50,327 bases of DNA. Source: a virus. Below are positions 3,370 to 50,327 of the stretch, one piece after another (the stretch's first letter is position 1; each line of letters begins with the position of its first letter). The stretch is from positions 1 through 50,327 of the IMG/VR virus record IMGVR_UViG_3300025601_000028. The stretch is one strand, 5' to 3'. Under the pieces are notes generated by a model. The model was not told the origin of the DNA, ran no database searches, and saw nothing but the letters and a program-made list of their open reading frames with translations. A program made the translations under genes and the position numbers.

Positions 3370-3375
3370 ACTTAA

Positions 3376-6478: not shown

Positions 6479-6509
6479 TCATCATCTCTCTGTATACTGT
6501 ACAATTATT

Positions 6510-7815: not shown

Positions 7816-7857
7816 CTACTTATTAAGTGATATTATTCTATAAGATTCGTTGCTCAT
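7816..7857 (-). other. 13-codon minicistron, possible vestige
   Basis: Between the 309-aa and 431-aa genes an ATG overlaps the upstream stop as ATGA. It opens a 13-codon frame (MSNESYRIISLNK) ending in TAG, just before the ribosome binding site of the 431-aa gene. It could be a translational-coupling leader or the remnant of a lost gene. There is no family evidence. Confidence 0.25.
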
Positions 7858-10232: not shown

Positions 10233-11082
10233 TCACAATCTCTCCTTGATTGTCTATTACTCTCTGCAAACTTAATTTATTCATAACATGTACATTTAAA
10301 GAATCAGTTTTAAGCAAAGTATATTCTCCAGGACCATCTTTTTTCCCTACTAAAAAAGTCATAGCAGTGTTGTTATGTTTGATTAACAGATCTTTGTCAG
10401 TTGTATAGTATTTTTTTCCAGGTAATTTTTTAGCAAAAGAACCCGTTTGAAACCCATTCATTATGTGAATTGCTATACTGAATACGTAGTCGTTGCGATA
10501 GATTGAAGAAGGGAGCCTGTACACTCGCACATAGTGATCCCACTCTTGTCGAACGTGTTTTACTAAGTCAAAGAAAGTTTTGTTGTTGTGTGTTTTTGTA
10601 AAATACACAACTGTGGCCCAATAGAAATCAACGCTGGTATCACTTACCTGTTTAAATTCTACAGTATTTCTAACTTGCGATAACTCATATGCATCCTTAT
10701 ACAGCATAAACTCATTAGAACTGTCAAATACATTTTTTAATAGACTGTTGTTTATAATAAAATCTGTATCCATTAAAAGTGTTTGGTCATAAGGAGAAAG
10801 ATCATAAGCATCAACTCGGGTGCCGTTTTGCCACTGAACTGTTTTTTGACTGTATTCTCCGTCAAATAGTATTCGACGATTTTTATCGTCAGTATCGTTT
10901 ACAGCAATAATTTTATCAAACACAGAAGCGTCAAAGCAATCTGTTGCGTAACCAGGACTGTTGGTTACTAGGCTAACAGGCACTTCTAAATATTTCTTTA
11001 TTCTTTTTGCTAGGTATACAGACTGTTTTACATAATCAATTTGACTGTTGTTATTAGCAATTAAAAGTACGCCTTTACTCAT
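10225..11082 (-). CDS. GT8-like glycosyltransferase candidate
   Basis: 285 aa from the ATG at 11,080-11,082. The TTG two codons earlier is less likely, because the paralogue at 9387-10,232 starts at the equivalent methionine (MTKGVLVLAQNN against MSKGVLLIANNN). QTLLMDTDFII supplies the DxD; VSLVTNSPGYA and WATVVYFTKTH follow the same plan as the paralogue. The start overlaps the 117-aa gene by 8 nt. A tandem duplication followed by divergence would explain the pair. Function is inferred from the fold-type motifs. Confidence 0.68.
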   Translation of the reverse strand: MSKGVLLIANNNSQIDYVKQSVYLAKRIKKYLEVPVSLVTNSPGYATDCFDASVFDKIIAVNDTDDKNRRILFDGEYSQKTVQWQNGTRVDAYDLSPYDQTLLMDTDFIINNSLLKNVFDSSNEFMLYKDAYELSQVRNTVEFKQVSDTSVDFYWATVVYFTKTHNNKTFFDLVKHVRQEWDHYVRVYRLPSSIYRNDYVFSIAIHIMNGFQTGSFAKKLPGKKYYTTDKDLLIKHNNTAMTFLVGKKDGPGEYTLLKTDSLNVHVMNKLSLQRVIDNQGEIVND

Positions 11083-11428
11083 GGTCAATTAATTTTTCAA
11101 CACTTCTATTTGATTTTAATTTATTATACTCTGCGTGATAAGTGTTTAATGCATTAAAATACTGATCTTGTATGTCTTCTAAGAATTGAGTCAAATCAAT
11201 AACTTCTACAGGTATTTCATTATCATCAACAAAAATAACATTTTCAGTATTGTCTTTTTCTACTAGCCAATTAACATAGTTAATCAGCGTTGTATTAATT
11301 GTAAATTGGCAACCTTTATAAAAGTAAACAAGACTTTCATTAAACTGTTCCTGTAAGACTCTGCGTTGATTTGACAGTGTCTGCATGTAATTCGCAAAGT
11401 CTAATGCTTTTTCAAGACGTTCGTCCAT
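11075..11428 (-). CDS. Small helical hypothetical protein, first gene of the cassette
   Basis: 117 aa with long predicted helices (LEKALDFANYMQTLSNQRRV; FLEDIQDQYFNALNTYHAEY), one cysteine, and no recognised family. The ATG follows AGGAG with a 6-nt spacer, the best ribosome binding site of the cassette. It is the first gene after the sigma70-like promoter at 11,450-11,478. This placement and its small acidic helical nature would suit an early phage protein or an adaptor for the downstream enzymes, but no function can be claimed. Confidence 0.65.
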   Translation of the reverse strand: MDERLEKALDFANYMQTLSNQRRVLQEQFNESLVYFYKGCQFTINTTLINYVNWLVEKDNTENVIFVDDNEIPVEVIDLTQFLEDIQDQYFNALNTYHAEYNKLKSNRSVEKLIDHE

Positions 11429-19555: not shown

Positions 19556-19563
19556 GTATTTAT
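19556..19563 (-). promoter_or_regulatory. Probable T4-type late promoter
   Basis: ATAAATAC on the minus strand (GAATAAATACAGTATAGG), overlapping the stop codon of the 5,262-aa gene and 15 nt before the chosen ATG of the 200-aa gene. The extended ATAAATACNGT context recurs before gp25. Confidence 0.6.
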
Positions 19564-22500
19564 TCTGGTAGCTCAGTTGTTCCAGCACGTAAGAATCTTG
19601 CTATGCTATTTTCAGCAGTTGACAGTGATTCTCCCAGTCTAGTCCAAGTTTGTCCTATTTTTTTGACCACTGTGATTCTAGTTTCGTTTGCAGGAATTGT
19701 CGAAGTACCTAATGCTGTAGAATTACCATTTTCGTCTAAGTAAACGTCAGTAACTTCGAGTTGGATGTCTTGGATATTTCTAGCAGCAATTTGTGCAGAT
19801 GTATACAACTCCGATACTGGTATTGTTAATATGTCGCCGACTTTATAATTAAATCCGCGATTTGTTGCTCTACTTACAGAAACTACTCCATTAGTTAGTG
19901 TAACATCAAACTTAGCAAATAATCCAGAACCGCCGGCTGCACTTATAGTATATATTGTAGGTTGTATAATGCCCGAGTCGTCTTTGTAAGTACGAGTATC
20001 AAGCACTGGATCTAATTGATATTTTTCTGTATCAATTATTGTATAAGAATTATTCTTTTCGATAAACTCGTTTATCGGGTCAACTCCAAATTCTTTCAGT
20101 GCTATTGTATCGCCTTTCGGACTATCAAGTGCTATAGTAGCATTAAACACGTCTAGTGATGTTTTTCGCAGGCGTGTGCCGCTACTAAACACTTCTATAT
20201 TATTGTCTGTTATAGTAAATCCAGGCACAAATGTATTTGTTACCTTAATAATATCGTTATCTGTTGTTTGTTCGTTATATACCAGTGTCTGATCCTTGTA
20301 TGGAACAGTCTTGCTAGCATTTTGATCAAACAGTTTTTCAGCCGCAGGATGAACTACAGGAGTACCTGTGCCCAGTGTACCTCTGCGCAACTGACGCAGT
20401 GTATTTCCTTCTTTTACAAAGTATTCAATACGTTCGCTGTTGATCCAAACGATGCCGGGCAAGTTGCCGCCTTTGTTTGGTTCTGCTAGATCTGTTCCGT
20501 CTACTACTTCAATTCTTAGATCATAATAGTTTAATGGTTGTGCAAGTGCTGTTGTTGCAGTGTCGAGACGCTTGAAGTGTGTACGATTCAGCATATCCTT
20601 AAACTGTCTGTAGGCAAATCTTGGCGCATTTACAGGCATAGTAAAATGTATTATGTCAATGACATCATTTGCCGCTGGCAGACGTACTAGTCTAACCTTG
20701 GTTCTATCATCAGTTACATAATAATCAACGCTGGGTGTTAATAGTTCTCCATTTACAGCTACCCAAACATACTCTGCATCAACAGCAGGTGTTCTCAGTG
20801 CTATTTCGCCCACTGTTAATCTATTGTATGTAACATATTGTACATCTTCAGGTATTAGTGTAGTTCTAGCAACTACATCATAGTTTATTCTTTCAATTCC
20901 TAGTACGTTGTGATTGCTAAATTGATAAATTTCTACTGTAGTGCTGTTAGTCGGAGCAGTGTTTAGTATAACAGTCTTGTTTGAAATTCTGTAGTCACCA
21001 TCTGTAATCACATAGACCTCAACAAAGTCGCCTGGAGCACCAACTTCATCTGCTAGTATAATGCTGCTGTTGGCAATTTCTAAACGCCACTGTACTGGAG
21101 ACACAATTTCAACTCCGTTAAGGAATACACTAACATCCTCAACTCCCAGCGATCCCACTGGTTGTTGGAATGTTTCAAGCGCAAACTCTCTTTCACTTAG
21201 TTGAGAAATTGTAAATTGCTTGTTATATCCAGCGTTTAGTATAGTGTTGCCGACTTTAACTAAGATGTTGTGTTCATTTGGCAGAGCATAGAACGGTGCA
21301 GACAACAGTTCAAATTGTGTATCTGTACCATTGGCAACGAACGTGTCTTTTGATACTTGACTATAGTTTATTTCTGTGTTAGTATTAAATATAACCCAGT
21401 ATATAGTCTTATCTGCTGTGGTAGGAGTATCAAATCTAAATGTTGCTCTATTATCGTCCTCAAACAGTGTAACAGTTTCAGCTTCTCCGTCAACAGTTAC
21501 ATAGACGCTGGCAGTGTCGACCCATTCTACACTAGTTTTGTAGTCAGTTTGACCTTCCACAGATGTAAAGAATCCGTAGTCCATAATATCCTGTGTACCA
21601 AGACCCATTGTGAGAATGTTTAGTTCTACGCCGTCAACTGGGTTAAGAATAGTTACAGTGTTGTCGGTCCAGTCTATAGTATATTCATCGTCTGCTAGGA
21701 TTTCGTTGTCTAGTTTTACAAATACACTGTCGGCGTTGCCGGGTGTTGTGCCCAGTGCGTACTGTGTTATGCTTGCGTCCATAATATAGCTTTGGCTATA
21801 TATGGTGCCTTGACCACCGCTTTCTCTAGTGTAAACTTTGATGTCAAGTGTATCAAGTACTTGGCCTGGGACTAGTTCTTCTGGGCCGCTGCTGGTTGTA
21901 GGTGTTACAAAGCCATCACCGTCTACTATGATTTCTTCTGGGTTCAGACCTTTGGCAGTTTGGTATGACAGGTCACCGCCTGACAGTGCTACATCATAAC
22001 TCAACGGATCAGGAATAACACTACCATCGCTGGTAATTTTTCTAACAATTAGAATATCACCATCTAGTAGCGATATACCTCTGTCATCAAGGTCTATAAT
22101 TTTAGTAACGCCATCGCCTGTGATACTGTTGGTAATTGCTGTTGGATTTACGGGTGTGCCTAGGTCGTAGTCAGGGTCGTCAAGTCTTACACCATTTTTA
22201 TAGATGTTGTAAACTATGCCATTTTCTAGAACATTGGTCAATTCTACAGCAATAGTAGAACCGTCGGCTATGAATACTTCATCTTCAAACGTGTTGTCAA
22301 AAGTATCCCAAGTATCTGTATACCATCCTTGACTGTCCCAGCCGCTTGGTCCGCCGAAATCAAATCCGCGCACTTCAACTCCGCCATAGTCTACACCACT
22401 CATAAGCTGTGCTAGATCGTTGCCCAACATACCTGCTACTGGTGTATAGGCGAATTTGATTCTATCTTCCGCACTCAACATGCTGAGAGGTCTGTAGTAT

Positions 22501-25500
22501 CCGACTGTGATGGTTGCTTCATTTGCAGGAGGACGAGTAAACGTTATACGACCTTTTTGATAGGAATATCCGTCTGTAATTTTCTGTGTGCCTGGGCCTG
22601 CTGCGCTGTTTACATCGCCATAATTAAACTCTTTAGCAAGTGTTTCAGCAGTTGGTATATAATCGACATTGCTGTAGGTATATTGACTTCTTAATTGTTC
22701 TACTCCGTTGACAGATATCTTGACTTTTCTGTTGTCAAGATCCATTGGCCATTCTAGATTAAACACTGTGTTGATGTTTGTTCCTGAGAATGTTTCTGTT
22801 TCTGCTAGATCTTCAAAAGTGTAAACTCCTGCTGTTCTATCAAACTTGATTCTGATGCTGGGTGTTCTTACTAGACCATTGCCCAATATAGCACTGGCTG
22901 CGGCGACTACTCCATCGTCAGTCTGCGGGCCTTCAATAACAACACGGGGTGTAGTGATATATCCACTGCCAGGATTAGTTATTTTAATTTCGGTAATACG
23001 ACCGTAACCTAGATAAGCTTTTGCTGTGGCTCCTGTGCCTTCACTTGATTCAAATCTAATTCTTGGTTCACTGGTATATCCGCTACCTGGGTTAGCTATT
23101 TGTATTTCTTTTATACTATAACCTATGTTGTCTGCCCAGTGCTTTCTAGGATATGACTCACTCAACACATTAGCCCCAACCAACACACCGTCTTGTATAA
23201 CAGCTCTGCTGGCTTCTATACGCTTGGTCAATCTGTCGTAGTAAGGAGCATTGTCAAAATCAGTTACACTGCTGTTGGTGCTGTCTAAGCTAGTGTACGA
23301 GCTAATGAATTCTCTAATCTTAGTGCTATATGGCTTAACTTCTTCAACATAGGCTTCGAAACTTGGAAGCTTGTTGTTTTCAAAGTTAATTTTTTGCTCA
23401 AGTTCTCCGAGATTATGCTTGACATTAACAAAGCTAGACTTGAACATCCAATCAACTCTCTGTTGCTCTGATAGGATGTAACGCAGGCTAGCAAAGAACA
23501 ACTGATTGTATTCTACTGCTAGGTCTGTGACGAGAATATCGTCTCTCAGTGTTTCTAGAATAATTCTCAACTCTTTGGCAGGATTGTTATCGTAGAACCA
23601 GCTGTCAAAGCTGCGGTTGTCGAAGCCTACTGTGTTTTTACTAAAATCATAGAGACTGTCGCTGAATTGTACAGTTCCATTTTGACGACCTATGGTTTTA
23701 TAGTTTATAGTGTAGTCTTCTGTGTCTTCGTTGGCAACTTTTTCTAACAGTAGCCAGCCGCCAGTACCCACATTATTGATTTTAACTATATCACCGACTA
23801 GGTCATCTAAGCTGGTTAATAGATACGCTCCTTCGATTTCATAATCTATATTTGTAAATTGATTGAAGCTAGACGCATACCAGTCAGCGTAATTCCAGTA
23901 TATACTTACGTCAAAGTCTTGTAGGCTGCTTCTGAACCAGGTGTTAGCAGTGTCGTTCCATGAGTACAATGCCCACTTTCCGTTCAGTGTTTCGTCACTG
24001 TTTACTAGTACAGAGAATCTTCTTGTATTAACTAGAGTGCTTTCATTATAGCCGCTGCCGTCATTTACAACTTCGGCTGACACAACCTGTCCTAGATTGT
24101 TTATAGTTAGTTCAACGTCAGCATTAACTCCAGTGCCTACAATATCTACACTAGGTGCTGTTTTGTATCCGCGGCCACTGTCAACTATGTCTACACGTAT
24201 TAGACGACCGTTTAGAATTACTGGGCTTAGTCTAGCAGGTGTTACTTTGTTAGTGCTTACAAAACGCAGTTCAGAATAGGTATCAACTGCTAGGTCATAC
24301 AGCTTTGTGGCTGTCGACGGTGTTGGCTCTTTTTCAAAAAGTCTGTCTATGTCATATTGGTCTACAACAAGATTTTCTGCTAGCACTAGGTTGGCACGTT
24401 CTATAGTCTGCTTGAGTGCTTCTATTCTGTTGACAAACATGCCCTGTCTTGGACGGTTCTGTATACCATAACGCTTGGCTATAGGAATATTAGGATCAGG
24501 CACTGGTCTATTGTTGGTGTCAACGCCTATCAAGCTGTCAAACCACTTGCGTTCAATGTCAGCATCAGGACGACTGCGATCTAAGCCGTCTGACATTAGA
24601 CGATACTGTGCGTGAGTGTTTTGTAATTTTTGTGAGCCAACATTGTAACGAATGTTTAGAACTAGATCATCTGATGTTACTAGGTTATCAAAATTGTTAA
24701 GAACAAATTTATTCTCACTTAGGAAACTAACAAATCTGTATCCCTGTTCTCTTGGTCTGGCTACTAGATTAGCCATTTCAAATGTACTGATGCTTCTGTC
24801 TCTAGTAGATGGAATTGTTCTCTTGTTTTGTACCCAGTAGTAATACTTGGTACTGAATATTTGGGCGATATCATCGTATGTCAATCTAGCACTGTACTTG
24901 CTGTTGACGTAAGGAGCAGTTCCACTTACGCCCAGTTCGATACCTTCATCAGTATCTGCTAGTTGATTCCATTGACTTGGTAGATATTCACTTTCTACCC
25001 ATTCATAGATATCAATAGTAGCATCAGGCATTAGTCTATTCCACTCGTTCTTTTGGAACGCAGTAGTGCCCTGGTATGCGAAACTAAATCTAGCGGTATT
25101 GATGTTCCACCATGTTTGACCTACGTGTTCACCTGCCCAGTATCTGCTGGGATCAACTGTTAAATCTGTTAGATCACCTACGTTGTAAGCAGCAGGATCA
25201 AATCCTATTTTGTAGGTCAATTCTTGTTCTACAATACCAGGTATCTTGCCCTGTATAGGATCAACATAGTCAACATAGCTGACTATTTGATTTGTACGCT
25301 TGTTATATAAGAATACACCTTCAATTCTCGATACATCTACAGGAGTTACGCTTGATCTTAGCGTATTCCATGCTGTATCGCCTTTTGGTTTTCTGTAGTC
25401 TACCACAATGCCCTTGCTTGAATCGCCAGCACTGTGTGAAGGCACGCCCACATACACATGGTTAGCATTGGCTAACAGTATTTCGCCAAACTCTGACTGA

Positions 25501-28500
25501 GCAGTGTCGTAACGGAATTGTTCGCTGTATACTAGTCTATCATTTAATTCTTCAAAGATATAAACTACACCTGTGTCTAGTTTGATATTTCTAAAATTAG
25601 TGAATCCGTTGTCAAATGTTACGTCACCGTTGTCAAAAGTAGTTGGTATTCTTTGATCGCCATTTAGACTCGAAACTGCTAAATTATCTTCGCCAAAACT
25701 AATATCATATCCAAACTGTTCGCTTTCTTCGTTGTTTGGAGGAGTTAATGTTTGACTTAGTACAAACTCTCCATCAACTTGTGTATAAACATAAACCTGT
25801 CCTTGATCAGTTTTAGCAGTATCGTCAAGCGGAGCACTGATAGCAAACTGTGTGCCAGCTGGATTAATAGTGATCTTTCTAGCCCAGTTGATAGTGTTTT
25901 GTAGCTGCGGTGCGTCAATAATTTGATCTAGCAGATACTTGTCGTCCGTTTCTCTGTAGATCAACACTTTGGTTTCGCTAGTGCTGCTGGCATCGACTAA
26001 TTCAGCAGTTACTACAATTACCTGTGCGTCACCACTTACATCATACGCATTGCTAAACTGAGCAATATTTGTAACTGGGTCAAACACTGCTTCATCATAA
26101 GATGCTATATCTGTTAGGTTTGGCAGATATCCTACATAATCAATTAGATCAGTTATCTCTGCCCACACAGTTGTTGAGAACGGTTCGTTGGCAGCTATGT
26201 TAGTTGTAGCTCTGTAGAATTTGTTGTTGAATCGTACAATGCTACCTACTGCGTAACCATAGCTGTTGTCCCAGTCTCCTCTGTAGTCAGTGTCCTTGCC
26301 TCTGCGCCAGCTGATATTGTTCCAATAAATAGGATCCTGTATTCTGTTTTCAGTTTCTGACATATTTTTAAGAGCAACGTAATAGTCATCTCTATAAATT
26401 ACAATATCGCCTTCTGAATACGCAGTAATCTGATATTCGCCACGGAAGCGATCAGTAGGTTTGACGCCATGACGGAATATTTCTATACTGCCTGGATGTT
26501 CTCTTCTCTCTGTTGAGTCATCTCCAGGAAGCACAACACTATTGCTTGAAACAAACAGTGTGTAGTAGTTGTCAACCTGTTTAATTTTAACTGATTTGCC
26601 GAATCCTCTGTTGGCTGTTCTGTACTCGCTTACAAACAGTTTTTGGAATCTATATCTTCCGTCTGGTAATTTACGGAATATTGCTACAGCGCCTTCACCG
26701 TTGGGGCCTGCTGTTCCAAATTCATCAGCTGAAATGTGATATACCTGTGTATAATCTTTGTTTAGACTGAACGGTGGGTTTGGTAATCTTTGTACACCTT
26801 GTTCTATTATTTCGTTAAAGAAGAAATACTCTTCATCTACCACTGGCGGTATTTCATTCCATGCTCTAGTATCGTTAAAATCTGAACTGTGTTCAAATAC
26901 TATTAATTTTCCAACTTCATTTGTTCCGACAGCGATATCATTTCCTGGATCGTTCACAGTTCCGATAACACGGTCAACATCGCCCGGGCCTCTAATTATA
27001 TTGTTGGCGTTGCGTCTTATTTCGTAACGTCCAATATTATTTTGTTGTAACCATGAGCCCGATAATACTTTTACATAAACTCTTACACTATTAAAATTAC
27101 GTTTCATATACATAATTTCTGCACTACTGGTTGTTGTAGTTGTAAGTGCTAGGCCGCCTGCGCCATCTCTCGGAGTTTGTACATCTTCAATAATGTCTCC
27201 TACTTGCGGCTCGAAAGGAAATCCACCAAAGTCAAATCTAGTAAATTCAAAATCAATATATCCGTCCCATAGATCATATATAGTCTGTGTTTTATTAGTT
27301 ACAGAATAGTTTCCAGTAATTCCAGCAGTTTCTAATGCATCGGTCAAATCTCTATTGTCTAGGTCGTACACACGGAATTCAAAGCTGTCTCCTGTAGACA
27401 ATGTGTCAGTAAATAATTTACCTGCTCTTACAACCCAAAGGTCACTAGGAATTTGTTGTTCTGTACCGTTAACACCGTCAGCGCCTGCTGGGTCGCCACG
27501 GTATGACAATTGAGTAATAACGCTTACTCTATTTCGATTGAGAACATAGTTACCAATTGTAGCTATTGTGTCTTGAATATTGTAATAAGAATTTAACGAT
27601 CTATTAGAATCTTGTAGACGAATGTCAGCATACACTAAGCCTCGGCCTATATCATAGTAACGTCCATTATTAGAATAACTAGGGGTTTCGATATACCAAA
27701 AACCTGCTACTGCATCGGTTGTACTGAATGTATTCTCTTCTGTATAAAATCCTACAAAGTCTACATCTTCAATAAACAATTCGCCTGTGATATCAAACGT
27801 ACCGTTGGTATCTTTTAGATACAATACAGTACTGTCTCTGCGGGTGCCTACATAAGCAACTTCGGCTTGGCCAGTATCTGTTGTAACTGTATCTCCTACG
27901 CCAGGCAGGGTAATAAAAGTCTCTATGAAAAATACATGATCAATCTTTTCTATGATTTCATGATCTTGCTGTAAAAATTCAGGAGTTATCTGTGGTATTT
28001 CGCCGTCAAATGGCAGGAATACATCCAGTGTTGGATATGCAAAGCTGCGTCTGTTCCAAAATAGATTTACGACATCACCAGCTTTTGTACCTAGATACGT
28101 GTCTCGAGGAGCTCTTACTAGTAGGTGATCTACTGTGTTGCCTTCTAGACCAGGGTCGCCTGCAACTAGCAGAGTTAAGCTAGTTGAGTCCGCATCTGCG
28201 CTGCTGGCTATATTAATGTAATTGTCAAATGTGCTGAATGGCTGTGTTGTGATTTGTGGTAGAATTTCTCTATTTGCTTTCCAGAGGCTGTCGCGGTCTT
28301 TGACTATATCATTTTTATTGTAGGCAGCATCAGCATCAAAGTCGCCTTTGAATCTTGTGTTAACTCCGCTGGCTGTTGGCAATCCTACTACTAGATATTC
28401 GCCGTCTTCAGTTACATCTAAACTAGAAGCAAATCCACTATCTGAAACTGTGAATAAATCACCGTCGTCTAATACCAATTCTTGGTCTATATTAAAATTA

Positions 28501-31500
28501 AATGTTTCTTTGGTTCTGCGATAGTAAAAAATCTTGCCGTTGCCGTCGCCTGGGGCTGCTACAAATAAATTGTTGTTGTCAGGAGTAGCTGCTATGTTGG
28601 TGCCGAAATCTTGTACAGTGCTGTCAAATTCAGAAAGATTTACAAGTGTCTGACGGTTTACGTAAACAGGATCGTTTTCTAAAACTGACCAGTCTCCATT
28701 ATAATTGTCGACCCACACACGCTGTTGGTTGTACAATTTTTCTTGTGCTAGCTGTGCTAATTCATCTAAATCGTCAACTCTTACACTTCTTAATTTAGTC
28801 AGTATATAACTCTGTGTAGCAAAAGGAACAATTTCATTATCTTCAGGAACCTGTATTTTAACTTCTTCTAGGCTTACGCTGTCTACTTTGTAGATGCTGT
28901 TTATGTTAAATTCTTGTGCTGATCTAACACCTACAAGATCGCCAGCCTGTACATGATCCTTGGCCCATTTGTCTAGACAGAGACTGCGTAAAGGTATCCC
29001 TTCGCTGTTAAGTTCTTGACGATCTTCTAGTTCAATTACGTTAGCATTGGTTGACACATGTTGGTATACGTCCCAGGGTGTAGCATTTACTTCAGTGACC
29101 CATACATATTCGCCGAGTCCCAGTTGATTCACATCACCTGTGTTAAGTTCGTCAGTGGTGCCTGCTATAAATGTAACATCTTCTTCGTTGACATAGCCTG
29201 CTGAACGTATGTATTCGTCAACTAACGGTTTAGTTGGGAAAGGTGTGTGATCATAATCTGCAGGGCGATCATACATTTCAAAAGGCAGTATACGATAAAT
29301 TTTATCAAAGTTAACAGCAGGTATACTGTTCACAAGTTCTACTGATTGCGGTGATTCTTGAATTTTGTCCTGCTTGAGATTGATTTCTATTTGCTGAATA
29401 TTATCCACAGCACCATATCTGCCGACCTGTAGTGCCCATTCTTCAAAGAATTCTAAGCTTTCTTCGCCAGCACTGCTGAGTTTGACAAACATCTTGTCAA
29501 GAGCATTTTTAGTGCCTTTGTCTTGAATCATTCCTTGATAGAATTTGTATTGGCTTACATCGTCGTTGATAATGTTTGCTAGATACTGACGCTTTTGATA
29601 ACCAGTTAGGTGCTGTGCCATCTTTTGTAGTTCAGCATCAAATCCGTCTGTGTCGAGATCGTAGAAATCTGCGAACTGATTAATTCTGTAATCAAAGTTT
29701 GTGATCAGTTCAGCCTCTGGCTTTTCATTTAATCTAAACCAGAAGTTGCTGTTAAAATCTTTAGTGCCCGGAGCATTTTCTGTAGCCACATAGAAGAATT
29801 GCTTGTATTTTACTAGGCTACCGATGGCATAGTCTTTCCACTGTGTCCATTCTGTGGTTTTGGCATCATCAAACACAAATCCAGGAATGTTTAAGCTGCC
29901 GTTCCAACCGTCTGAACGATATCCTGCTACTTTAATTCTGTCTCTTCTATAACCAGTGCTGGGTTGATAAAGAACGTCGTTGAATATAGTAAGATTGTTG
30001 ACCAATACAACATGCTCTTTTTGTACAAGAGGTAACGCAATAGAATACAGGCCTTCGTCTGTGCTAACTATTTCAAGACCGAAACTGTTTTCATCTCTTA
30101 GCAAACTTCCAAATTCTCTTGGAAGTGATTGTCCGTCTGATTGAAGTAAGCTGTAGTTATAAAAATCATCATAGATATCATCAACTACTACAAATTCTCT
30201 TTGGAAGAAGAATCTGTTGGCAGCAGGAGAAAGTGTAATAACAGTGCCACTGGCCCAACCCTGTGTGGTCCAGAATAAGAATTCTCTAGCGGCGGCATTC
30301 CAGTTGTTTACACGACCTTCAGATTCTACAAAATTAAAATCAAATCCAAGGTCATTTAATCTTGCGCCATATCCTAATAGGAAATCAACTACGTCTTGAC
30401 TGGTTCTCAGTACTGTGCCGTAAGGTATAGAAAGAGGTTTTCTTGATTCAAAGTTTTTCTTAAACTCAGCAGTTTTTCCTCCTACTATCGGAAGAGCAGG
30501 CAGTCTTGCTAGATTGTCTGTATTAAAAGTGTCACCCGAAGTAAAGGTTGCTGTTGCTCTATAGAATGTATTATTGAATTGTACAACTTGACCTTCTTGA
30601 TATCTTTTGTCGTTTTCCCATTCTGCTGCTGTTTCTGATATACCACCCACAGTGACCGCTGTGCTGCTGGTTCCTGCTTGTGGAGCATAGTAATCGAAGA
30701 ATGATGCGTCGTTGTTATAACCTCTAACAATAAATCCGTTGGCTACTTTTTCAACGGCCACACCACTGTACACTGCCAGTTCAATAGGCGAGCTGGTATT
30801 GAAGAATATTTGATAATTTTCTTGTGGGACAAAGATGCCGCCTTCAAAATTAGCACTGGGTGATCTGCTTTCTAGTATTAGGTTTAATTTTTGAGTATCG
30901 CTAAATCCTGCTAGTTTAAATCCTAGTTGATTTATTAGCGTTGTTAACTGTGTTTGATAATCACTGTATACTGCTAGTACATCGCTGGCTACTAGATTGT
31001 AGATGTAGTTTACAAATCCGGCAGTGAGTATTCTTTCGTCGTCAGCAAATGTGTTAGGGAATACTATGTCTGTGTTTGAGATAGGCTTGCTAGATTGTTG
31101 ATAAACTTTTTGGCCGGCTAGGTTTCTTGATATTCTGCTTACGTCAAATCCTGCGCCCATTGTTTGTGCAGGCTTGTTTAACAACATACTGGTAATTAAC
31201 GCAAACGGATATTGTGAACTTCTACGCCATGCTGTTTCTACAGGTGCTTCGTCGCCGAAGTTAAAGTTGCCAGTGCTCAATCTCAACACAAAATTCTTAA
31301 CATAGCCGGAGCGTAGGGGAGATTTTAAATTGCCTTGATTGTCTGCTGGGATAAAGTTGGCCAGGCCGGCACGAACAAATTTATCCTTTACTTGTATTTC
31401 TTTACCAGGTTCTCTTACAATGCCCTGCTCTAGGTCTCTCCAAAGTATAAGGTTATCGCTGGTATATGGTGCTGGACCATAAACTGTGTTCCACCATGTT

Positions 31501-34500
31501 GGCTTGATTGTGAATCCCAACATTTCCCATGGATGTGAGTGAGGACGATCTGTGTCATACGCACGCTTGTACACACCTCTCCAAAATCCTGGTGCTAGTT
31601 CTCCTTGTGGATTGTTAGCATTTGAATAGTTGAATGTAAATTCGTTTAGACGATCGTAGAAGAAATTGTCAGTGTAATCGTTGTCAACCAGTTTTAACCA
31701 TTGTGTAAATTCTGTTAACAGACTTCTGTTTAGTTCTGTTCTAGTAAATTCACTAGATCTAAAATCGCCGCCTGCAAATCCGTAGACGTCAGTTATATCT
31801 TCTGACCATTCAACTTTGATGTTGTTGAATATTCTTTTTTCTAGTTCTAAAAGTAGCTCGTCTCTATAGTCTAGGTATGCTCTAATATAGCTGCCGTCGT
31901 GACCTCTTACAAAAGGTATGCCCACAGGATACGCATCTATTTCAATATTGTCTTGGCCACCACGAGTGTTTTCTGCTGATGCTGCCATGTACAGTGTTCT
32001 GTTTAGACCTTTGAACTGTAGAGATTCAATTGTGCCTGTGCCTCCCAGAGCTGTGTCTGCTGCTCTAGCTGCTGAACGTGAAGTGTATACTGGATAGAAC
32101 CATCCTCTGGCTCCTAGCAGCGGATGACCGTCGACTATAGAACCGTAGATTTTATATGGGCCTTCTGAAGCGGGCTCGTCAGTTTGGAAAGTATCATCAA
32201 TAGTTAATTCAGGTTCGTACTTTGGATACAATCCCAACTTGCTAGGTGTTGGGGCAACAAAGCCGCCATCTGTTGTAGCATATTCTACTATTTCAATAGT
32301 GTCGCCTTCTCGTTGATCAGCACTGATAAGAGCATATCCATCGGTGTTAAATGTATAATCTCTGTTGTGTGTTAGTTGACGACCATTGAGGTAAATCAGC
32401 GCACTTCTAGCACTGGGATCGCTTAGAGAAAATGTTCGGCTCAGAGCATAGAATGTTGATCTGGGATCTAATACTTCGTATTCGATTCTATTGAACGGAC
32501 CATAGCCTATCATATCTGAGAAATAGAAAGGCTGACTTTTGATCTTGTCCTTGTTCATTTCTGCTAGAACTCTGTCAACGTGTATTCTAGTTTCGCCGTC
32601 GAATCCCAGTGTTTCGGCAGTTTCTAAAAACACACGCTTGAACTTAGCATATTCATCTCTGCTGTATCTCAATGCCTTGACAATGTTGTAGTCTTTGGTG
32701 GTAAGGTGATACAAAGGTAGGTTGATTGGTCCGGTGTGCTTTACAAACTTTTTACCGTATCTGTCAATATCGCCAAGATCTCTGATGTTGCTGGTTCCTG
32801 GGAATACTCCGCTGAACTGATTCAGTTCTTCGACCATGCTGCTAACATGATCAATTACTTCGCCTAGTGTAAATTCAGTCACGTCTTGGTTCAGTGGATT
32901 GCGCTCAAGGTTATGAGGAAATTCATAATATCCGTTGACATTTTTAACTGTTGTGCTGCGAGTTTTTATTACAACTACGTCGCCTTCATTGAGATCTTGA
33001 TAAAATCTCACAAACGCTCTTGAATTAATTCTGTCGATTTCATAGTCTTGAAGTCTAACTTTTAAGCTGTTGTTAACCTGTACAATTACCTTGAGATCAT
33101 TTAGATCGCCTGCACGATCATAAACGTCTACTTCAAAACTGTTGACTGTTAGATCGTCGGCGATGTACTGTGTTACGACATACTGCTTGCTTAGAGCAGG
33201 CACACTTGACCATCCGTTAACCCAAGCAAAGTCAGTTCTGGTGCGATATCTTCTTAGGTTTGCTGTGTCTGTGGTAACTGTTTCTACACCACTGTCAGTT
33301 TGTACTGTAAAACTGTCAGTAAGTAAATTGAAGTCAAACAGTATGTCACCGCTGTTTTCAATATTTCTATATGTTAGAGCAAAATCTAATTCAGGATCAG
33401 TCGAGCCGGTGTCCTGTCTATAGCTGAATATTTTTGTCCCTCTAAATGTAGCACTGTCAAACACATCAGTATCTGCGAACTCGTTGCCCTGTGGACAGCA
33501 TAGATCAAACAGCGGAGGTTGGTTGCGCTGTGTTTTTTCCTGTGCTATTTGCCAGTCTGTACCATTGTAGAAAAATGTTTGACCAGCATATCTATTACCC
33601 TGTGTAACAAACACTGTTTCGTTTTCTAAAGGATCAGTGTCCGCTGTTTCAACTAGACTAATCTGTCTGTTATTTCCTATTTCTATAAAGTTTACTTGAT
33701 AGATTTTACCACGCACTAGTATGTCAGTATCTGCTATAAACAATACTCTCATACCATCAGCAATATCAACACCGTCTACGTTATATCCTAATTGACCTTC
33801 TATTGTACTAAACACATCTTGAGTAAATGTATCCACAAGATCAACATCACGTTTGGCTTCTGTACCAAAGTTGTACAGTTTAAGTCCTGCTTCAAATTCA
33901 ATAATAGGACGCTTGGCTCTAGTTTCTTCGTCAATGTTAACTGGTAGATCGTTGCGCAGAAAACTAGTCTCAACAACACTTCTATGGAACCAACGGTTGT
34001 AGCGACTCCACGCATTTCTATCACGTGCGGCTCTGTTGATTACTAGGTAATCTTTTTCAGCTGGGAAAGAACTAGCATTAGCAAATGGCAGTACATCAAA
34101 CTGATCTGAATCAAAAGGTATTAATCTGTTTTCAGAATAAGCTGCTGGAATAATTAGATCAACGTCTTTGATCAAACGAATCTTGTCGCCAACACCTTCG
34201 ACGTACCATTGATTCTGATTGTATTCAGCAGGAGTAACGTCACCAGTGAATTGTAATTTCATACCGTTTGACAGTTCTATTCCATCTGCGTTGCGATAGG
34301 TCTTCTTGCCTAGAATATCTGCTTCTACGTCGAGAAAAGTATTTTCTTCTACATCATAGATTCTTAACAGACCGCTGGTATCAATACTGTTTTTACTGAT
34401 ATAGTAAAGTCTTTCAGGTGAGTCGGCAGGTATTGTAAATTCAATAGTTCCACGTTCTACATAAACAGTAGCAACTTCTTCTCCATCTTCGCCTAGCTTG

Positions 34501-35348
34501 CGAATACCGTCTGGATACAGTGTGCTTACATTATCATCAGCTTCAAAGAAAACGCTGCCGCTGCTGGGAAGGATAATAAAGTCTCCCTGATCGTATTCGT
34601 TGCCATAGAGAACGCCGTCAAAAAGTCCGTTAGCTCTTAGACCTTCTGATCCAGCAGTGAGAATAGCAGTGCCTGGTGTAAACGTTCTGCTGATCGAAAA
34701 TGCAATAGGATGGCCTGGTGTGTCTATTTCAAATCTGTAGGTCTGTCCTCTGTACAGTTTAAGAGTTGGGTTTCTAGTAAACCCGTCATTGAACACATAA
34801 GCAGTGTTGTCATCTTCTGTCACAGTGGTTACAGTGTAGGTGCTGACGATTTCTCTCTGTTGTCCTCTTAGAGGAATACTGAGAGGTCCGTTTGGTAGCC
34901 AGTAGTATTCACGGAAGTTTACAAATTTGTCCCAGTCTATGTGGGGATCCCAGGCATAGTATTCTTGGCTGTTTAGACGGTCGTGGTTGTCTGTGTTTGC
35001 TCCGAAGAAACGTAGAGATCCTAGATAGTCGTTATAATCTTTGTAGAAGGTAACATTATCCAGTGTGTCTTTGATTACAGCAGCTGGTTCAAACTGATAA
35101 TTTTCTCTATCTGCACTTACATCACCGATATAGTTGTCGTCAGCTTTGCGAGCTTTGGCTGTTTTACGTCCTACAAATCCACTTAGCTTTTCTGCTACGC
35201 CAGGTTGTATCAGCTGATCGATTGTTCCTTGTAGAAACTTTCTGTTGGCTTCTGTTTTAAAAAACTTCGGTATTAGATCAGATGCTGTGCGCTTGTCATT
35301 GCCTGGTGTTGGTAGCGGACTTTCATTTTGATTATCGTTGTACGCCAT
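19560..35348 (-). CDS. Giant modular virion structural protein (5,262 aa)
   Basis: An uninterrupted 15.8-kb ORF starting one base into the gp6 stop. The N-terminus (~1-180) is a unique anchoring region. Residues ~190-320 look like a cupredoxin-type beta-sandwich (LKLYRGQTYRFEI, PGHPIAFSIS, LYYISKN). About five CBM5/12-like modules follow the pattern W/F-x-x-Y-x-x-G-x-x-V-x-[FY]-x-x-x-[FY]-[YW]-x-A, near 30,600, 29,830, 28,340, 26,420 and 26,260. They are interleaved with FG-GAP/propeller-like blades (NIAATPDNNNLFVAAPGDGN; QFAISAPLDD; HVYVGVPSHSAGDS). NPGSGY repeats occur around 22,900-24,200. The position after gp6 matches T4 gp7 (about 1,030 aa), so a wedge core plus host-binding modules is my inference. 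Confidence 0.8.
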   Translation of the reverse strand: MAYNDNQNESPLPTPGNDKRTASDLIPKFFKTEANRKFLQGTIDQLIQPGVAEKLSGFVGRKTAKARKADDNYIGDVSADRENYQFEPAAVIKDTLDNVTFYKDYNDYLGSLRFFGANTDNHDRLNSQEYYAWDPHIDWDKFVNFREYYWLPNGPLSIPLRGQQREIVSTYTVTTVTEDDNTAYVFNDGFTRNPTLKLYRGQTYRFEIDTPGHPIAFSISRTFTPGTAILTAGSEGLRANGLFDGVLYGNEYDQGDFIILPSSGSVFFEADDNVSTLYPDGIRKLGEDGEEVATVYVERGTIEFTIPADSPERLYYISKNSIDTSGLLRIYDVEENTFLDVEADILGKKTYRNADGIELSNGMKLQFTGDVTPAEYNQNQWYVEGVGDKIRLIKDVDLIIPAAYSENRLIPFDSDQFDVLPFANASSFPAEKDYLVINRAARDRNAWSRYNRWFHRSVVETSFLRNDLPVNIDEETRAKRPIIEFEAGLKLYNFGTEAKRDVDLVDTFTQDVFSTIEGQLGYNVDGVDIADGMRVLFIADTDILVRGKIYQVNFIEIGNNRQISLVETADTDPLENETVFVTQGNRYAGQTFFYNGTDWQIAQEKTQRNQPPLFDLCCPQGNEFADTDVFDSATFRGTKIFSYRQDTGSTDPELDFALTYRNIENSGDILFDFNLLTDSFTVQTDSGVETVTTDTANLRRYRTRTDFAWVNGWSSVPALSKQYVVTQYIADDLTVNSFEVDVYDRAGDLNDLKVIVQVNNSLKVRLQDYEIDRINSRAFVRFYQDLNEGDVVVIKTRSTTVKNVNGYYEFPHNLERNPLNQDVTEFTLGEVIDHVSSMVEELNQFSGVFPGTSNIRDLGDIDRYGKKFVKHTGPINLPLYHLTTKDYNIVKALRYSRDEYAKFKRVFLETAETLGFDGETRIHVDRVLAEMNKDKIKSQPFYFSDMIGYGPFNRIEYEVLDPRSTFYALSRTFSLSDPSARSALIYLNGRQLTHNRDYTFNTDGYALISADQREGDTIEIVEYATTDGGFVAPTPSKLGLYPKYEPELTIDDTFQTDEPASEGPYKIYGSIVDGHPLLGARGWFYPVYTSRSAARAADTALGGTGTIESLQFKGLNRTLYMAASAENTRGGQDNIEIDAYPVGIPFVRGHDGSYIRAYLDYRDELLLELEKRIFNNIKVEWSEDITDVYGFAGGDFRSSEFTRTELNRSLLTEFTQWLKLVDNDYTDNFFYDRLNEFTFNYSNANNPQGELAPGFWRGVYKRAYDTDRPHSHPWEMLGFTIKPTWWNTVYGPAPYTSDNLILWRDLEQGIVREPGKEIQVKDKFVRAGLANFIPADNQGNLKSPLRSGYVKNFVLRLSTGNFNFGDEAPVETAWRRSSQYPFALITSMLLNKPAQTMGAGFDVSRISRNLAGQKVYQQSSKPISNTDIVFPNTFADDERILTAGFVNYIYNLVASDVLAVYSDYQTQLTTLINQLGFKLAGFSDTQKLNLILESRSPSANFEGGIFVPQENYQIFFNTSSPIELAVYSGVAVEKVANGFIVRGYNNDASFFDYYAPQAGTSSTAVTVGGISETAAEWENDKRYQEGQVVQFNNTFYRATATFTSGDTFNTDNLARLPALPIVGGKTAEFKKNFESRKPLSIPYGTVLRTSQDVVDFLLGYGARLNDLGFDFNFVESEGRVNNWNAAAREFLFWTTQGWASGTVITLSPAANRFFFQREFVVVDDIYDDFYNYSLLQSDGQSLPREFGSLLRDENSFGLEIVSTDEGLYSIALPLVQKEHVVLVNNLTIFNDVLYQPSTGYRRDRIKVAGYRSDGWNGSLNIPGFVFDDAKTTEWTQWKDYAIGSLVKYKQFFYVATENAPGTKDFNSNFWFRLNEKPEAELITNFDYRINQFADFYDLDTDGFDAELQKMAQHLTGYQKRQYLANIINDDVSQYKFYQGMIQDKGTKNALDKMFVKLSSAGEESLEFFEEWALQVGRYGAVDNIQQIEINLKQDKIQESPQSVELVNSIPAVNFDKIYRILPFEMYDRPADYDHTPFPTKPLVDEYIRSAGYVNEEDVTFIAGTTDELNTGDVNQLGLGEYVWVTEVNATPWDVYQHVSTNANVIELEDRQELNSEGIPLRSLCLDKWAKDHVQAGDLVGVRSAQEFNINSIYKVDSVSLEEVKIQVPEDNEIVPFATQSYILTKLRSVRVDDLDELAQLAQEKLYNQQRVWVDNYNGDWSVLENDPVYVNRQTLVNLSEFDSTVQDFGTNIAATPDNNNLFVAAPGDGNGKIFYYRRTKETFNFNIDQELVLDDGDLFTVSDSGFASSLDVTEDGEYLVVGLPTASGVNTRFKGDFDADAAYNKNDIVKDRDSLWKANREILPQITTQPFSTFDNYINIASSADADSTSLTLLVAGDPGLEGNTVDHLLVRAPRDTYLGTKAGDVVNLFWNRRSFAYPTLDVFLPFDGEIPQITPEFLQQDHEIIEKIDHVFFIETFITLPGVGDTVTTDTGQAEVAYVGTRRDSTVLYLKDTNGTFDITGELFIEDVDFVGFYTEENTFSTTDAVAGFWYIETPSYSNNGRYYDIGRGLVYADIRLQDSNRSLNSYYNIQDTIATIGNYVLNRNRVSVITQLSYRGDPAGADGVNGTEQQIPSDLWVVRAGKLFTDTLSTGDSFEFRVYDLDNRDLTDALETAGITGNYSVTNKTQTIYDLWDGYIDFEFTRFDFGGFPFEPQVGDIIEDVQTPRDGAGGLALTTTTTSSAEIMYMKRNFNSVRVYVKVLSGSWLQQNNIGRYEIRRNANNIIRGPGDVDRVIGTVNDPGNDIAVGTNEVGKLIVFEHSSDFNDTRAWNEIPPVVDEEYFFFNEIIEQGVQRLPNPPFSLNKDYTQVYHISADEFGTAGPNGEGAVAIFRKLPDGRYRFQKLFVSEYRTANRGFGKSVKIKQVDNYYTLFVSSNSVVLPGDDSTERREHPGSIEIFRHGVKPTDRFRGEYQITAYSEGDIVIYRDDYYVALKNMSETENRIQDPIYWNNISWRRGKDTDYRGDWDNSYGYAVGSIVRFNNKFYRATTNIAANEPFSTTVWAEITDLIDYVGYLPNLTDIASYDEAVFDPVTNIAQFSNAYDVSGDAQVIVVTAELVDASSTSETKVLIYRETDDKYLLDQIIDAPQLQNTINWARKITINPAGTQFAISAPLDDTAKTDQGQVYVYTQVDGEFVLSQTLTPPNNEESEQFGYDISFGEDNLAVSSLNGDQRIPTTFDNGDVTFDNGFTNFRNIKLDTGVVYIFEELNDRLVYSEQFRYDTAQSEFGEILLANANHVYVGVPSHSAGDSSKGIVVDYRKPKGDTAWNTLRSSVTPVDVSRIEGVFLYNKRTNQIVSYVDYVDPIQGKIPGIVEQELTYKIGFDPAAYNVGDLTDLTVDPSRYWAGEHVGQTWWNINTARFSFAYQGTTAFQKNEWNRLMPDATIDIYEWVESEYLPSQWNQLADTDEGIELGVSGTAPYVNSKYSARLTYDDIAQIFSTKYYYWVQNKRTIPSTRDRSISTFEMANLVARPREQGYRFVSFLSENKFVLNNFDNLVTSDDLVLNIRYNVGSQKLQNTHAQYRLMSDGLDRSRPDADIERKWFDSLIGVDTNNRPVPDPNIPIAKRYGIQNRPRQGMFVNRIEALKQTIERANLVLAENLVVDQYDIDRLFEKEPTPSTATKLYDLAVDTYSELRFVSTNKVTPARLSPVILNGRLIRVDIVDSGRGYKTAPSVDIVGTGVNADVELTINNLGQVVSAEVVNDGSGYNESTLVNTRRFSVLVNSDETLNGKWALYSWNDTANTWFRSSLQDFDVSIYWNYADWYASSFNQFTNIDYEIEGAYLLTSLDDLVGDIVKINNVGTGGWLLLEKVANEDTEDYTINYKTIGRQNGTVQFSDSLYDFSKNTVGFDNRSFDSWFYDNNPAKELRIILETLRDDILVTDLAVEYNQLFFASLRYILSEQQRVDWMFKSSFVNVKHNLGELEQKINFENNKLPSFEAYVEEVKPYSTKIREFISSYTSLDSTNSSVTDFDNAPYYDRLTKRIEASRAVIQDGVLVGANVLSESYPRKHWADNIGYSIKEIQIANPGSGYTSEPRIRFESSEGTGATAKAYLGYGRITEIKITNPGSGYITTPRVVIEGPQTDDGVVAAASAILGNGLVRTPSIRIKFDRTAGVYTFEDLAETETFSGTNINTVFNLEWPMDLDNRKVKISVNGVEQLRSQYTYSNVDYIPTAETLAKEFNYGDVNSAAGPGTQKITDGYSYQKGRITFTRPPANEATITVGYYRPLSMLSAEDRIKFAYTPVAGMLGNDLAQLMSGVDYGGVEVRGFDFGGPSGWDSQGWYTDTWDTFDNTFEDEVFIADGSTIAVELTNVLENGIVYNIYKNGVRLDDPDYDLGTPVNPTAITNSITGDGVTKIIDLDDRGISLLDGDILIVRKITSDGSVIPDPLSYDVALSGGDLSYQTAKGLNPEEIIVDGDGFVTPTTSSGPEELVPGQVLDTLDIKVYTRESGGQGTIYSQSYIMDASITQYALGTTPGNADSVFVKLDNEILADDEYTIDWTDNTVTILNPVDGVELNILTMGLGTQDIMDYGFFTSVEGQTDYKTSVEWVDTASVYVTVDGEAETVTLFEDDNRATFRFDTPTTADKTIYWVIFNTNTEINYSQVSKDTFVANGTDTQFELLSAPFYALPNEHNILVKVGNTILNAGYNKQFTISQLSEREFALETFQQPVGSLGVEDVSVFLNGVEIVSPVQWRLEIANSSIILADEVGAPGDFVEVYVITDGDYRISNKTVILNTAPTNSTTVEIYQFSNHNVLGIERINYDVVARTTLIPEDVQYVTYNRLTVGEIALRTPAVDAEYVWVAVNGELLTPSVDYYVTDDRTKVRLVRLPAANDVIDIIHFTMPVNAPRFAYRQFKDMLNRTHFKRLDTATTALAQPLNYYDLRIEVVDGTDLAEPNKGGNLPGIVWINSERIEYFVKEGNTLRQLRRGTLGTGTPVVHPAAEKLFDQNASKTVPYKDQTLVYNEQTTDNDIIKVTNTFVPGFTITDNNIEVFSSGTRLRKTSLDVFNATIALDSPKGDTIALKEFGVDPINEFIEKNNSYTIIDTEKYQLDPVLDTRTYKDDSGIIQPTIYTISAAGGSGLFAKFDVTLTNGVVSVSRATNRGFNYKVGDILTIPVSELYTSAQIAARNIQDIQLEVTDVYLDENGNSTALGTSTIPANETRITVVKKIGQTWTRLGESLSTAENSIARFLRAGTTELPE

Positions 35349-48872: not shown

Positions 48873-48901
48873 TTGACTTTTGTCCAACGATATCATATAC
48901 T
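48873..48901 (+). promoter_or_regulatory. Sigma70-type promoter of gp47/gp46
   Basis: TTGACT (48,873-48,878), 17-bp spacer, TATACT (48,896-48,901). Downstream TTAACGAAACTACGGAG parallels TTTAACGAACTAGGAG after the cassette promoter at 11,450-11,478. The predicted transcript start (~48,908) lies before the TTG start at 48,925. Confidence 0.78.
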
Positions 48902-48924
48902 TAACGAAACTACGGAGTTTAAAT

Positions 48925-49938
48925 TTGTTTAACAAAGCAGCGGTATTCACCGACATACATTTTGGCAATAAAAACAACAGTAAAGTACACAATCAAGATT
49001 GCGAAGATTTTGTAGACTGGTATATTGAGACTGCGCAAGCAAATGGTTGTGAGGTTGGTATTTTTTGTGGTGATTGGAATCACAATCGCAACAGTCTTAA
49101 CCTCACAACCATGGATGCTGGTATCAGAAGCCTAGAAAAACTTGGCAAAGCCTTTGACAAGTTCTACATGTTCGCAGGCAATCATGATCTTTACTACAAA
49201 GACAAGCGTGATATCAAAAGCACTGAGTGGGCCAAGCACATTCCAGGCATCACAGTGGTAGATGAGATCAAGGTGATCGACGATGTAGCACTGGTGCCTT
49301 GGTTGGTAGGTGATGAATGGAAGCGTGTAAAGAAGTTAGAGTGCAAATACATGTTTGGACACTTCGAACTGCCTACGTTCTTAATGAATGCCATGGTTCG
49401 TATGCCAGACCACGGTGAACTCACAGTTGAACAGTTGGCAAAACCCAAGTATGTGTTCAGTGGTCACTTCCATGCTCGTCAGAAACAGGGTAATGTACAC
49501 TATATGGGCAATGCGTTTCCACACAACTATTCTGATGCTTGGGATGATCGTCGAGGTATGATGATCCTGGACAGAGCCAACGATCTAGAACCTGAATATA
49601 TCAACTGGGAAGACTGTCCAAAGTATAGAACAGTAAAACTGAGCCGGCTGATAGATGAACAGTCTACCATGATCAAAAGTAAAATGTATCTGCGGGTAGA
49701 ACTGGATCTGCCTACCAGCTTTGAAGAGGCCAGCTTTGTTAAAGAAATGTTCATTCAACAGTATGGTTGTAGAGAAATTACACTAATTCCGCAAAAACAG
49801 ATCAATGAGATCAATACTGATCTGGATATTGCTCAGTTCGAAAGCGTGGATCAGATCGTAGCCAACGAAATTGCTGCTCTAGACACAGAGTCGTATAACA
49901 AAAAACTGCTTTTAGACATTTATAGTGGATTAGAATAA
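48925..49938 (+). CDS. 47: Recombination nuclease subunit gp47 (Mre11-like)
   Basis: 337 aa from a TTG start (48,925-48,927), chosen because GGAG lies 7 nt upstream. The longer reading from the TTG at 48,880 would begin inside the promoter. Metallophosphoesterase motifs are complete: FTDIHFG (Asp10, His12), GDWNHN, AGNHDLY, FGHFE and SGHFHARQ. gp47 pairs with the gp46 ATPase to resect DNA ends for T4-type recombination-dependent replication; T4 gp47 is 339 aa, so the length fits. gp46 follows after 3 nt. Expression is expected to be early or middle. Confidence 0.93.
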   Translation: MFNKAAVFTDIHFGNKNNSKVHNQDCEDFVDWYIETAQANGCEVGIFCGDWNHNRNSLNLTTMDAGIRSLEKLGKAFDKFYMFAGNHDLYYKDKRDIKSTEWAKHIPGITVVDEIKVIDDVALVPWLVGDEWKRVKKLECKYMFGHFELPTFLMNAMVRMPDHGELTVEQLAKPKYVFSGHFHARQKQGNVHYMGNAFPHNYSDAWDDRRGMMILDRANDLEPEYINWEDCPKYRTVKLSRLIDEQSTMIKSKMYLRVELDLPTSFEEASFVKEMFIQQYGCREITLIPQKQINEINTDLDIAQFESVDQIVANEIAALDTESYNKKLLLDIYSGLE

Positions 49939-49941
49939 CCA

Positions 49942-50214
49942 ATGGCAATTAAAATCAAAGATTTAACTGTAAAGAACTTTATGAGTGTGGGCAATCAGAC
50001 CCAGGCTGTTAACTTTAACAGGGAACAACTGACTTTGGTGCTGGGGGAGAACCTAGACCAGGGTGGTGATGACACTGGTTCACGCAATGGTACTGGTAAG
50101 TGTGTTTGTATAAATACTATTGTAAAGGTAAAAAACACTAAAACTGGTGAAATTTACGAAACAACTGTAGGAGATTTATACAATGCCGCGATGGGACAAC
50201 AATCTAAAAGATAA
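49942..50214 (+). CDS. 46: gp46 (Rad50-like) N-terminal extein fused to an intein N-fragment
   Basis: Residues 1-53 are the start of gp46: IKIKDLTVKNFMSVGNQTQA and LTLVLGENLD leading into the Walker A region GSRNGTGK. The conserved Ser/Thr that should follow GK is replaced by Cys54, and from there the sequence is intein-like to a stop at 50,212-50,214. A complete gp46 is 500 or more residues, so this ORF alone cannot be an active ATPase: it lacks the Walker B, coiled coil and zinc hook. It must be completed in trans by a C-intein plus C-extein encoded outside the window, or be dead. It lies 3 nt after gp47. Confidence 0.85.
   Translation: MAIKIKDLTVKNFMSVGNQTQAVNFNREQLTLVLGENLDQGGDDTGSRNGTGKCVCINTIVKVKNTKTGEIYETTVGDLYNAAMGQQSKR
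50101..50214 (+). mobile_element. N-terminal fragment of an atypical split intein
   Basis: Directly after GTGK the sequence reads CVCINTIVKVKNTKTG. Cys1, Thr6 and Val8 fit intein block A (C-x4-T-x-V). The following GEIYETTVGDLYNAA resembles the beta-turn and GDLY end of the N-fragments of phage-borne inteins. The frame ends after only 37 intein codons. Conventional N-inteins are ~100 residues, whereas a rare class (for example the AceL TerL intein) splits after about 25. The splice junction would be 50,100/50,101, inside the ATP-binding loop, a favoured insertion site for inteins. A frameshifted full-length intein is the main alternative. Confidence 0.75.
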
Positions 50215-50327
50215 TTGTATTAATATTTTGGATAATGTTATTAAAAACTTAAAACCTGATCGTAGAGAATTAATTCTCTACGAAATTTTATCTTTAGGTA
50301 TTATTAATAATAAAAAAAAGATTGAGC
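50183..50327 (+). CDS. ORF nested in the split intein gene, possible homing endonuclease (runs off window)
   Basis: ATG at 50,183-50,185 begins MPRWDNNLKDNCINILDNVI and stays open for 48 codons to the window end, in the +1 frame relative to gp46. It overlaps the intein fragment by 32 nt. A GGAG site (50,170-50,173) lies 9 nt upstream, inside the intein coding sequence. The visible part is lysine/asparagine-rich and AT-rich, more so than gp47. In published fractured genes an endonuclease ORF separates the two intein halves; by position this would be it, but no catalytic motif is visible yet. Confidence 0.55.
   Translation, partial: MPRWDNNLKDNCINILDNVIKNLKPDRRELILYEILSLGIINNKKKIE

Follow-up and report, generated by a model that had tools for sequence, protein, structure and literature searches.

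The gp46 gene of a T4-like phage, as it stands in the viral contig IMGVR_UViG_3300025601_000028, is very probably a fractured gene. The IMG/VR record holds only this contig, which we analysed over its whole length of 50,327 bases (the window). A class 1 split intein of the N-short type (37 + about 124 residues) would interrupt the protein between the Lys and Thr of its Walker A motif, a free-standing endonuclease gene of the Vsr/EDxHD type would lie between the two halves, and the products would be joined by protein trans-splicing. This reading draws on the anatomy of the locus, the conservation of the catalytic residues, the predicted fold of the intein, purifying selection and a transfer whose limits are the splice junctions. 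The window holds the following parts of the locus and its upstream partner.

49942–50100, + strand: N-extein, residues 1–53 of gp46 (Rad50/SbcC-like), the last residues being Walker A GTGK (phrog_77 SbcC-like, E=1.3e-6; tblastn)
50101–50211, + strand: N-intein, 37 residues, CVCINTIVKVKNTKTGEIYETTVGDLYNAAMGQQSKR, with Cys1 at 50101–50103 (direct reading; homologues in 27 distinct gp46 loci; predicted Hint fold of the reconstituted homologue in contig L008)
50169–50173, + strand: AGGAG within the N-intein coding sequence, 9 nt 5' of the endonuclease ATG, a Shine-Dalgarno-like site by direct reading and putative in function
50183–50327, + strand: first 48 codons of a Vsr-like homing endonuclease gene, then the contig end (100% identity to contig L003 from its position 6242; profile and structure match to Vsr)
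50212–50214, + strand: stop codon of the N-precursor (direct reading)
48880–49938, + strand: gp47, the Mre11/SbcD-like nuclease subunit and partner of gp46 (phrog_100 SbcD-like, E=7.6e-63; Pfam Metallophos, 3e-7)

Directly past GTGK, which ends at 50100, the codons TGT GTT TGT ATA AAT ACT ATT GTA AAG GTA read CVCINTIVKV. Cys thus takes the place of the Walker A Ser/Thr, as the original prediction had it, and the frame closes 37 codons after GTGK, as it had also said. No GxGKC other than GTGKC is present in any of the window's six frames, and 100 mononucleotide shuffles gave no instance of the motif G-x-G-K-C-x4-T-x-[VIL]. The endonuclease is read in another frame than the N-intein, with an overlap of 32 nt between the genes, and the contig ends 113 bp beyond the N-precursor stop. 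Matches to the N-extein by tblastn include SbcC-like ATPases of phages Phosso, Atu_ph07 and others. The N-fragment had been assigned to a class of 16–25 residues, whereas its actual length is 37 residues (33–43 in relatives).

Relatives of the locus were found in IMG/VR with the first 90 residues of the N-precursor as query. Among the 80 best loci, GTGK is followed by Thr in 72 (empty sites) and by Cys in 8, a division that does not reflect frequency, as the loci were picked by similarity. The relative L002 stops at the same place as the window; L003 matches the window without a difference from 49942 up to the window's last base, and it carries the complete locus. Its endonuclease gene (368 codons, 6242–7348) overlaps by 25 nt the ORF (open reading frame) of the C-half, which opens at 7324 and encodes a 124-residue C-intein, MHTISNTVKRKFVNS...TENMFDLTVDSNDHRFYTNGILSHN, followed by TTIINALSYALYGQALTNIKRN and the remainder of gp46. 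In public viral contigs the C-intein (about 124 residues) terminates in SHN, and TTIINALSYALYG and the rest of gp46 come next. The order N-part, endonuclease, C-part is complete in L003, L005, L006, L007, L009 and most of L082–L112. Among the 27 gp46 loci that are distinct and have an N-part, 21 hold an ORF of at least 100 codons, typed as Vsr-like by motif, between the intein halves, and 6 have none. Fragment lengths are 37 + 124 residues in L003 and 34–43 + 123–128 in the other gp46 loci measured; the N-intein of L005 has 33.

When the extein halves of L007 are joined, the predicted product has 595 residues, 440 of them identical to the intact gp46 of L010 (593 residues), and the alignment has no gap at GTGK|TTIINAL. 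The spliced gp46 is SbcC-like over its length (phrog_77, E=3e-87) with Walker A GTGK|T restored, and it gives a weak Rad50_zn_hook match, with CxxC present. An ORF with a C-intein followed by Ser, Thr or Cys and the gp46 remainder, which the original prediction placed downstream, is thus present in related contigs (L003, L005, L006, L007, L009 and others), with Thr at +1. The uninterrupted gp46 genes seen were all empty sites of other phages, and among the loci examined we found no gp46 remainder continuing in frame without a C-intein.

The C-part carries the intein blocks B (..CADTH..), F (..MFDLTV..DHRFYTN..) and G (ILSHN), followed by Thr, and scores 23.0 bits against the NCBIfam model TIGR01443 intein_Cterm (cut-off 15.6). 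A profile search of the PDB with the C-part returned VidaL (1e-10), gp41-1 (1e-6) and Cat (5e-5). Terminal HN and the motifs of blocks B and F are kept in all 51 distinct C-inteins (30 in gp46, 21 in TerL, the terminase large subunit), and the +1 residue is Thr in 46 of these and Ser in 5. All 27 N-parts identified in distinct gp46 loci have Cys1, although the search pattern itself demanded GK followed by Cys. We modelled the intein of L008, in which the endonuclease is gone and the halves stand in one frame split by a stop, reading this stop as a residue to give a chain of 180 residues. With the other loci as alignment, AlphaFold2 returned a mean predicted local distance difference test score (pLDDT) of 85.3 and a predicted template modelling (TM) score (pTM) of 0.76, with disorder confined to residues 39–65, at the split point and the end of helix 23–45. 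The best Foldseek match of the model in the PDB is VidaL (E 2.4e-9, TM-score 0.77 by target length); there are 53 PDB matches at E<=0.001, and the 50 matches listed are all inteins, intein-endonucleases or bacterial intein-like (BIL) domains. The reconstituted intein is therefore predicted to adopt the Hint fold. It is split after the first helix, which is position S2, as in AceL-TerL and GOS-TerL (PMC13014065). The C-half ORFs, the motifs and the profile matches together support what the original prediction proposed, an atypical, N-short split intein within the P-loop of gp46. That prediction had named neither the split behind the first helix nor the free-standing endonuclease gene nor the fractured-gene type.

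The endonuclease gene overlaps the coding sequences of both intein halves, and its last codons contain the Shine-Dalgarno-like GAGG of the C-half. In an alignment of eleven homologues over their length, D287, E296, W302, H303, W326, D329, W347 and E348 are invariant. The modelled C-terminal domain matches Vsr with a Foldseek probability of 1.00 for both 1vsr and 1cw0 (TM-scores by target length 0.61 and 0.54, respectively), and by this model the endonuclease is of the Vsr/EDxHD homing type, which has been described in fractured genes and in introns of phages (PMC12350094).

Comparison of L003 with L005 indicates recent homing, or gene conversion, of the whole intein and endonuclease unit. Between Cys1 (6160) and the terminal Asn (7695) the two contigs differ by 3 mismatches in 1,536 bp, and the block of identity, 6154–7700, reaches only a few bases past the splice junctions; outside the unit, identity is about 60–75% per 100 bp. 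Recent transfer of the entire unit is suggested because the near-identity ends at the splice junctions while the flanks diverge. A transferred block bounded by the intein is also indirect support for site-specific cleavage of the empty allele, and the endonuclease would be expected to cleave empty gp46. Across the five segments the median ratio of non-synonymous to synonymous differences (pN/pS) ranges from 0.26 to 0.43, and synonymous sites are close to saturation; judged by these ratios, all five, intein parts included, are under purifying selection.

Several observations weigh against our interpretation. The window ends at base 145 of the endonuclease gene, and the C-half of gp46 in this genome is therefore deduced from contigs with an identical intein (L003). 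Pfam Intein_splicing matches the C-part (E=4e-6) below its curated cut-off, and the N-part alone has no intein match among the Pfam and NCBIfam models, as might be expected because the fragment has only 37 residues. Hidden Markov models of inteins, the check that the original prediction asked for, thus match the C-part but not the N-part. The Thr position of the block B motif TxxH is occupied by Ala (C-A-D-x-H), with the block B His invariant; gp41-1 has Ser at this position. Finally, sequence-profile matches of the endonuclease to Vsr are weak (E 0.014–0.23).

A frame that closes soon after GTGK in a contig ending 113 bp later would also fit a gp46 pseudogene or an assembly artefact, in which the sequence after GTGK would be junk brought in by a frameshift or a chimeric join. 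However, the junction recurs in many contigs from different samples, with intein protein identity down to about 41%; the frames are open, appear to be under purifying selection and are conserved across the 27 distinct gp46 loci; and an intact C-extein joins on precisely. We consider such an origin extremely improbable and rejected it on the strength of the many independent homologues and the purifying selection. Equally improbable is splicing at the RNA level, with the insertion being a group I or II intron that encodes the endonuclease. Vsr-like endonucleases do occur in phage introns too (PMC12350094), but the flanking pieces encode a conserved intein protein exactly to the junctions, ending HN^T, the two pieces are predicted to fold together as a Hint domain, and gp46 versions that lack the endonuclease measure about 485–620 bp between Cys1 and +1, a length taken up almost entirely by intein coding sequence. 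We rejected the RNA intron because conservation at the protein level reaches the junctions.

It is somewhat less improbable, though still very unlikely, that the halves are expressed and remain unspliced, either because the insertion inactivates gp46 or because the halves form the ATPase non-covalently. There is a reported precedent, cited in PMC10448857, in a phage ribonucleotide reductase that is split by a homing endonuclease and still works as two peptides. In gp46, however, Cys1, the His residues of blocks B and F, the terminal His-Asn and Thr/Ser+1 are all retained, the intein parts appear to be under purifying selection, and the break lies in the P-loop between Lys and Thr, which would leave unspliced halves without an intact Walker A.

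Under trans-splicing, the three overlapping ORFs (gp46-N/IntN, endonuclease and IntC/gp46-C) would be translated separately, probably from one transcript, with the endonuclease and IntC/gp46-C each using its own Shine-Dalgarno-like site. The precursors gp46(1-53)-IntN and IntC-gp46(54 to end) would associate through IntN and IntC, Cys1 would start the acyl shifts by which the chain moves to Thr+1, and cyclisation of the terminal Asn would free a seamless gp46 with an intact P-loop. With Walker A broken between its Lys and Thr, gp46 should be unable to bind ATP until the halves are ligated, and no ATP-binding gp46 would be present before trans-splicing had occurred. As the original prediction proposed, ATPase activity would then depend on splicing; we infer both this dependence and trans-splicing itself from sequence. 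The endonuclease would cut intein-less gp46 near GK^T, and recombination would copy the whole intein and endonuclease unit.

A profile search found the same split intein in the Walker A of TerL as well, at GK^T or GK^S. Of the distinct TerL loci with an N-part, 10 have an ORF between the halves, 2 have none and 2 are contiguous. The closest named relatives of the C-intein are contiguous TerL inteins, those of Vibrio phage Kuja (46%) and Klebsiella phage Magnus (41%). The endonuclease is deleted in L102 and L008, where its last codons persist, reading ..VLVIWESDFKKNKEEVVKKCIQFLTQ and ..QNKEETLKKCLQFLKQ, and the remnant retains GAGG before the start of the C-half; it is plausible that this stub has been kept to supply the C-half with a ribosome-binding site. 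No ORF of at least 100 codons lies between the halves in L109, L110, L150 and L178, and the gene is still split. The best C-intein tree implies 5 gains or losses between gp46 and TerL, of which well-supported branches force only 1; several jumps are therefore suggested by a tree too weakly supported for proof. Scanning 84,980 bacterial and archaeal genomes returned L219 and L220 (Bacteroidales and Prevotella contigs of metagenome-assembled genomes) as sole C-intein relatives, which are probably phage contigs binned into these assemblies.

Other mobile elements were seen at or near such loci. Contiguous Ser1 inteins of several hundred residues with a LAGLIDADG-like motif occupy the exact gp46 GTGK|T site in L113 (295–3150), L114 (3783–6638) and L115 (3837–6169), and this one insertion point is therefore used by inteins of two unlike types. 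In L102, which has lost the gp46 endonuclease, gp47 is separated from gp46-N by an HNH-like ORF (3744–4610) and has a Vsr-like ORF (910–2649) just upstream; replacement by other homing endonucleases is possible. The endonuclease ORFs of L085 (154–1445) and L172 are frame-broken, as is the N-part of L085, which could reflect either decay following homing or errors of sequencing. L125 has an endonuclease relative near 5001–5843 and a C-intein-like end, HQYYTNGIVSHN^TVLLIDTMKFLLFG, perhaps marking a third host gene; L125 forms an extreme long branch in the C-intein tree, which we leave uninterpreted.

Elsewhere in the window, several ORFs carrying radical-SAM/SPASM-like cysteine motifs lie on the − strand at 2178–7805 (2178–2726, 4134–5123, 5120–6478 and 6510–7805), interleaved with glycosyltransferase-like ORFs (67–2060, 2683–3369, 7854–8783 and 9387–11088). 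By eye this looks like a modification cassette beside tail genes. A single − strand ORF of 5,262 codons (19560–35348) probably encodes a very large tail or baseplate protein.

Natural split inteins of the N-short type are rare but known. Fractured genes, in which a split intein has a free-standing homing endonuclease between its halves, were reportedly described by Dassa et al. 2009 (NAR 37:2560). The gp46 locus resembles them in being a phage DNA-metabolism gene cut by a split intein with a free-standing Vsr-related endonuclease between the halves, and differs in its host gene, gp46 (Rad50/SbcC). The arrangement, a gene fractured by an atypically split intein, is therefore already known, and gp46 is a host gene for which we found no report of an intein in the open-access literature, a coverage outside which the host-gene list of Dassa et al. 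2009, with a possible gp46 entry, lies. Like the gp46 intein, AceL-TerL, GOS-TerL and Cat are N-short and split after the first helix (S2). The N-part of GOS-TerL is likewise 37 residues long, with a C-part of 115, and AceL has 25/104 (PMC11766414, PMC13014065). These inteins use Cys+1 (and Ser1 in GOS-TerL), in contrast to Cys1 and Thr+1 in gp46, and Cat shows weak sequence similarity to the gp46 intein (E 5e-5). VidaL (PDB 6vgv) is the best structural and profile match but has an N-part of 16 residues and is split after beta-strand 2 (S1) (PMC13014065), not at 37 residues and S2. Ackermannviridae TerL inteins (Vibrio phage Kuja, Klebsiella phage Magnus and Salmonella phage Marshall) share the Walker A GK^T site, whereas they are contiguous mini-inteins (Magnus 159 residues, an annotated intein; Kuja 173) with no endonuclease gene. 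The TerL1-a inteins of mycobacteriophages likewise share the insertion between P-loop Lys and Thr, given as a classic site in an excerpt of PMC5050341; their host gene is the terminase, and that excerpt holds no description of them as split.

The family (30 gp46 and 21 TerL variants) would be a source of protein-ligation tools with Thr+1 or Ser+1 rather than Cys+1, with N-fragments short enough for chemical synthesis. Its series of homologues, with the endonuclease, with the endonuclease lost, contiguous and as empty sites, may illustrate how endonucleases create split inteins and what follows their loss. We tentatively suggest, as a possibility we rate well short of probable, that one split-intein lineage specialised on Walker A moved between the non-homologous gp46 and terminase, always at GK^T/S, and that in gp46 it sits in a recombination nuclease subunit that may process the breaks of its own endonuclease, with trans-splicing coupling homing, recombination activity and phage timing. 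A phage Rad50 homologue would join the set of genes whose products can rely on protein trans-splicing, cut in the very loop that should make ATP binding impossible until its halves are joined.
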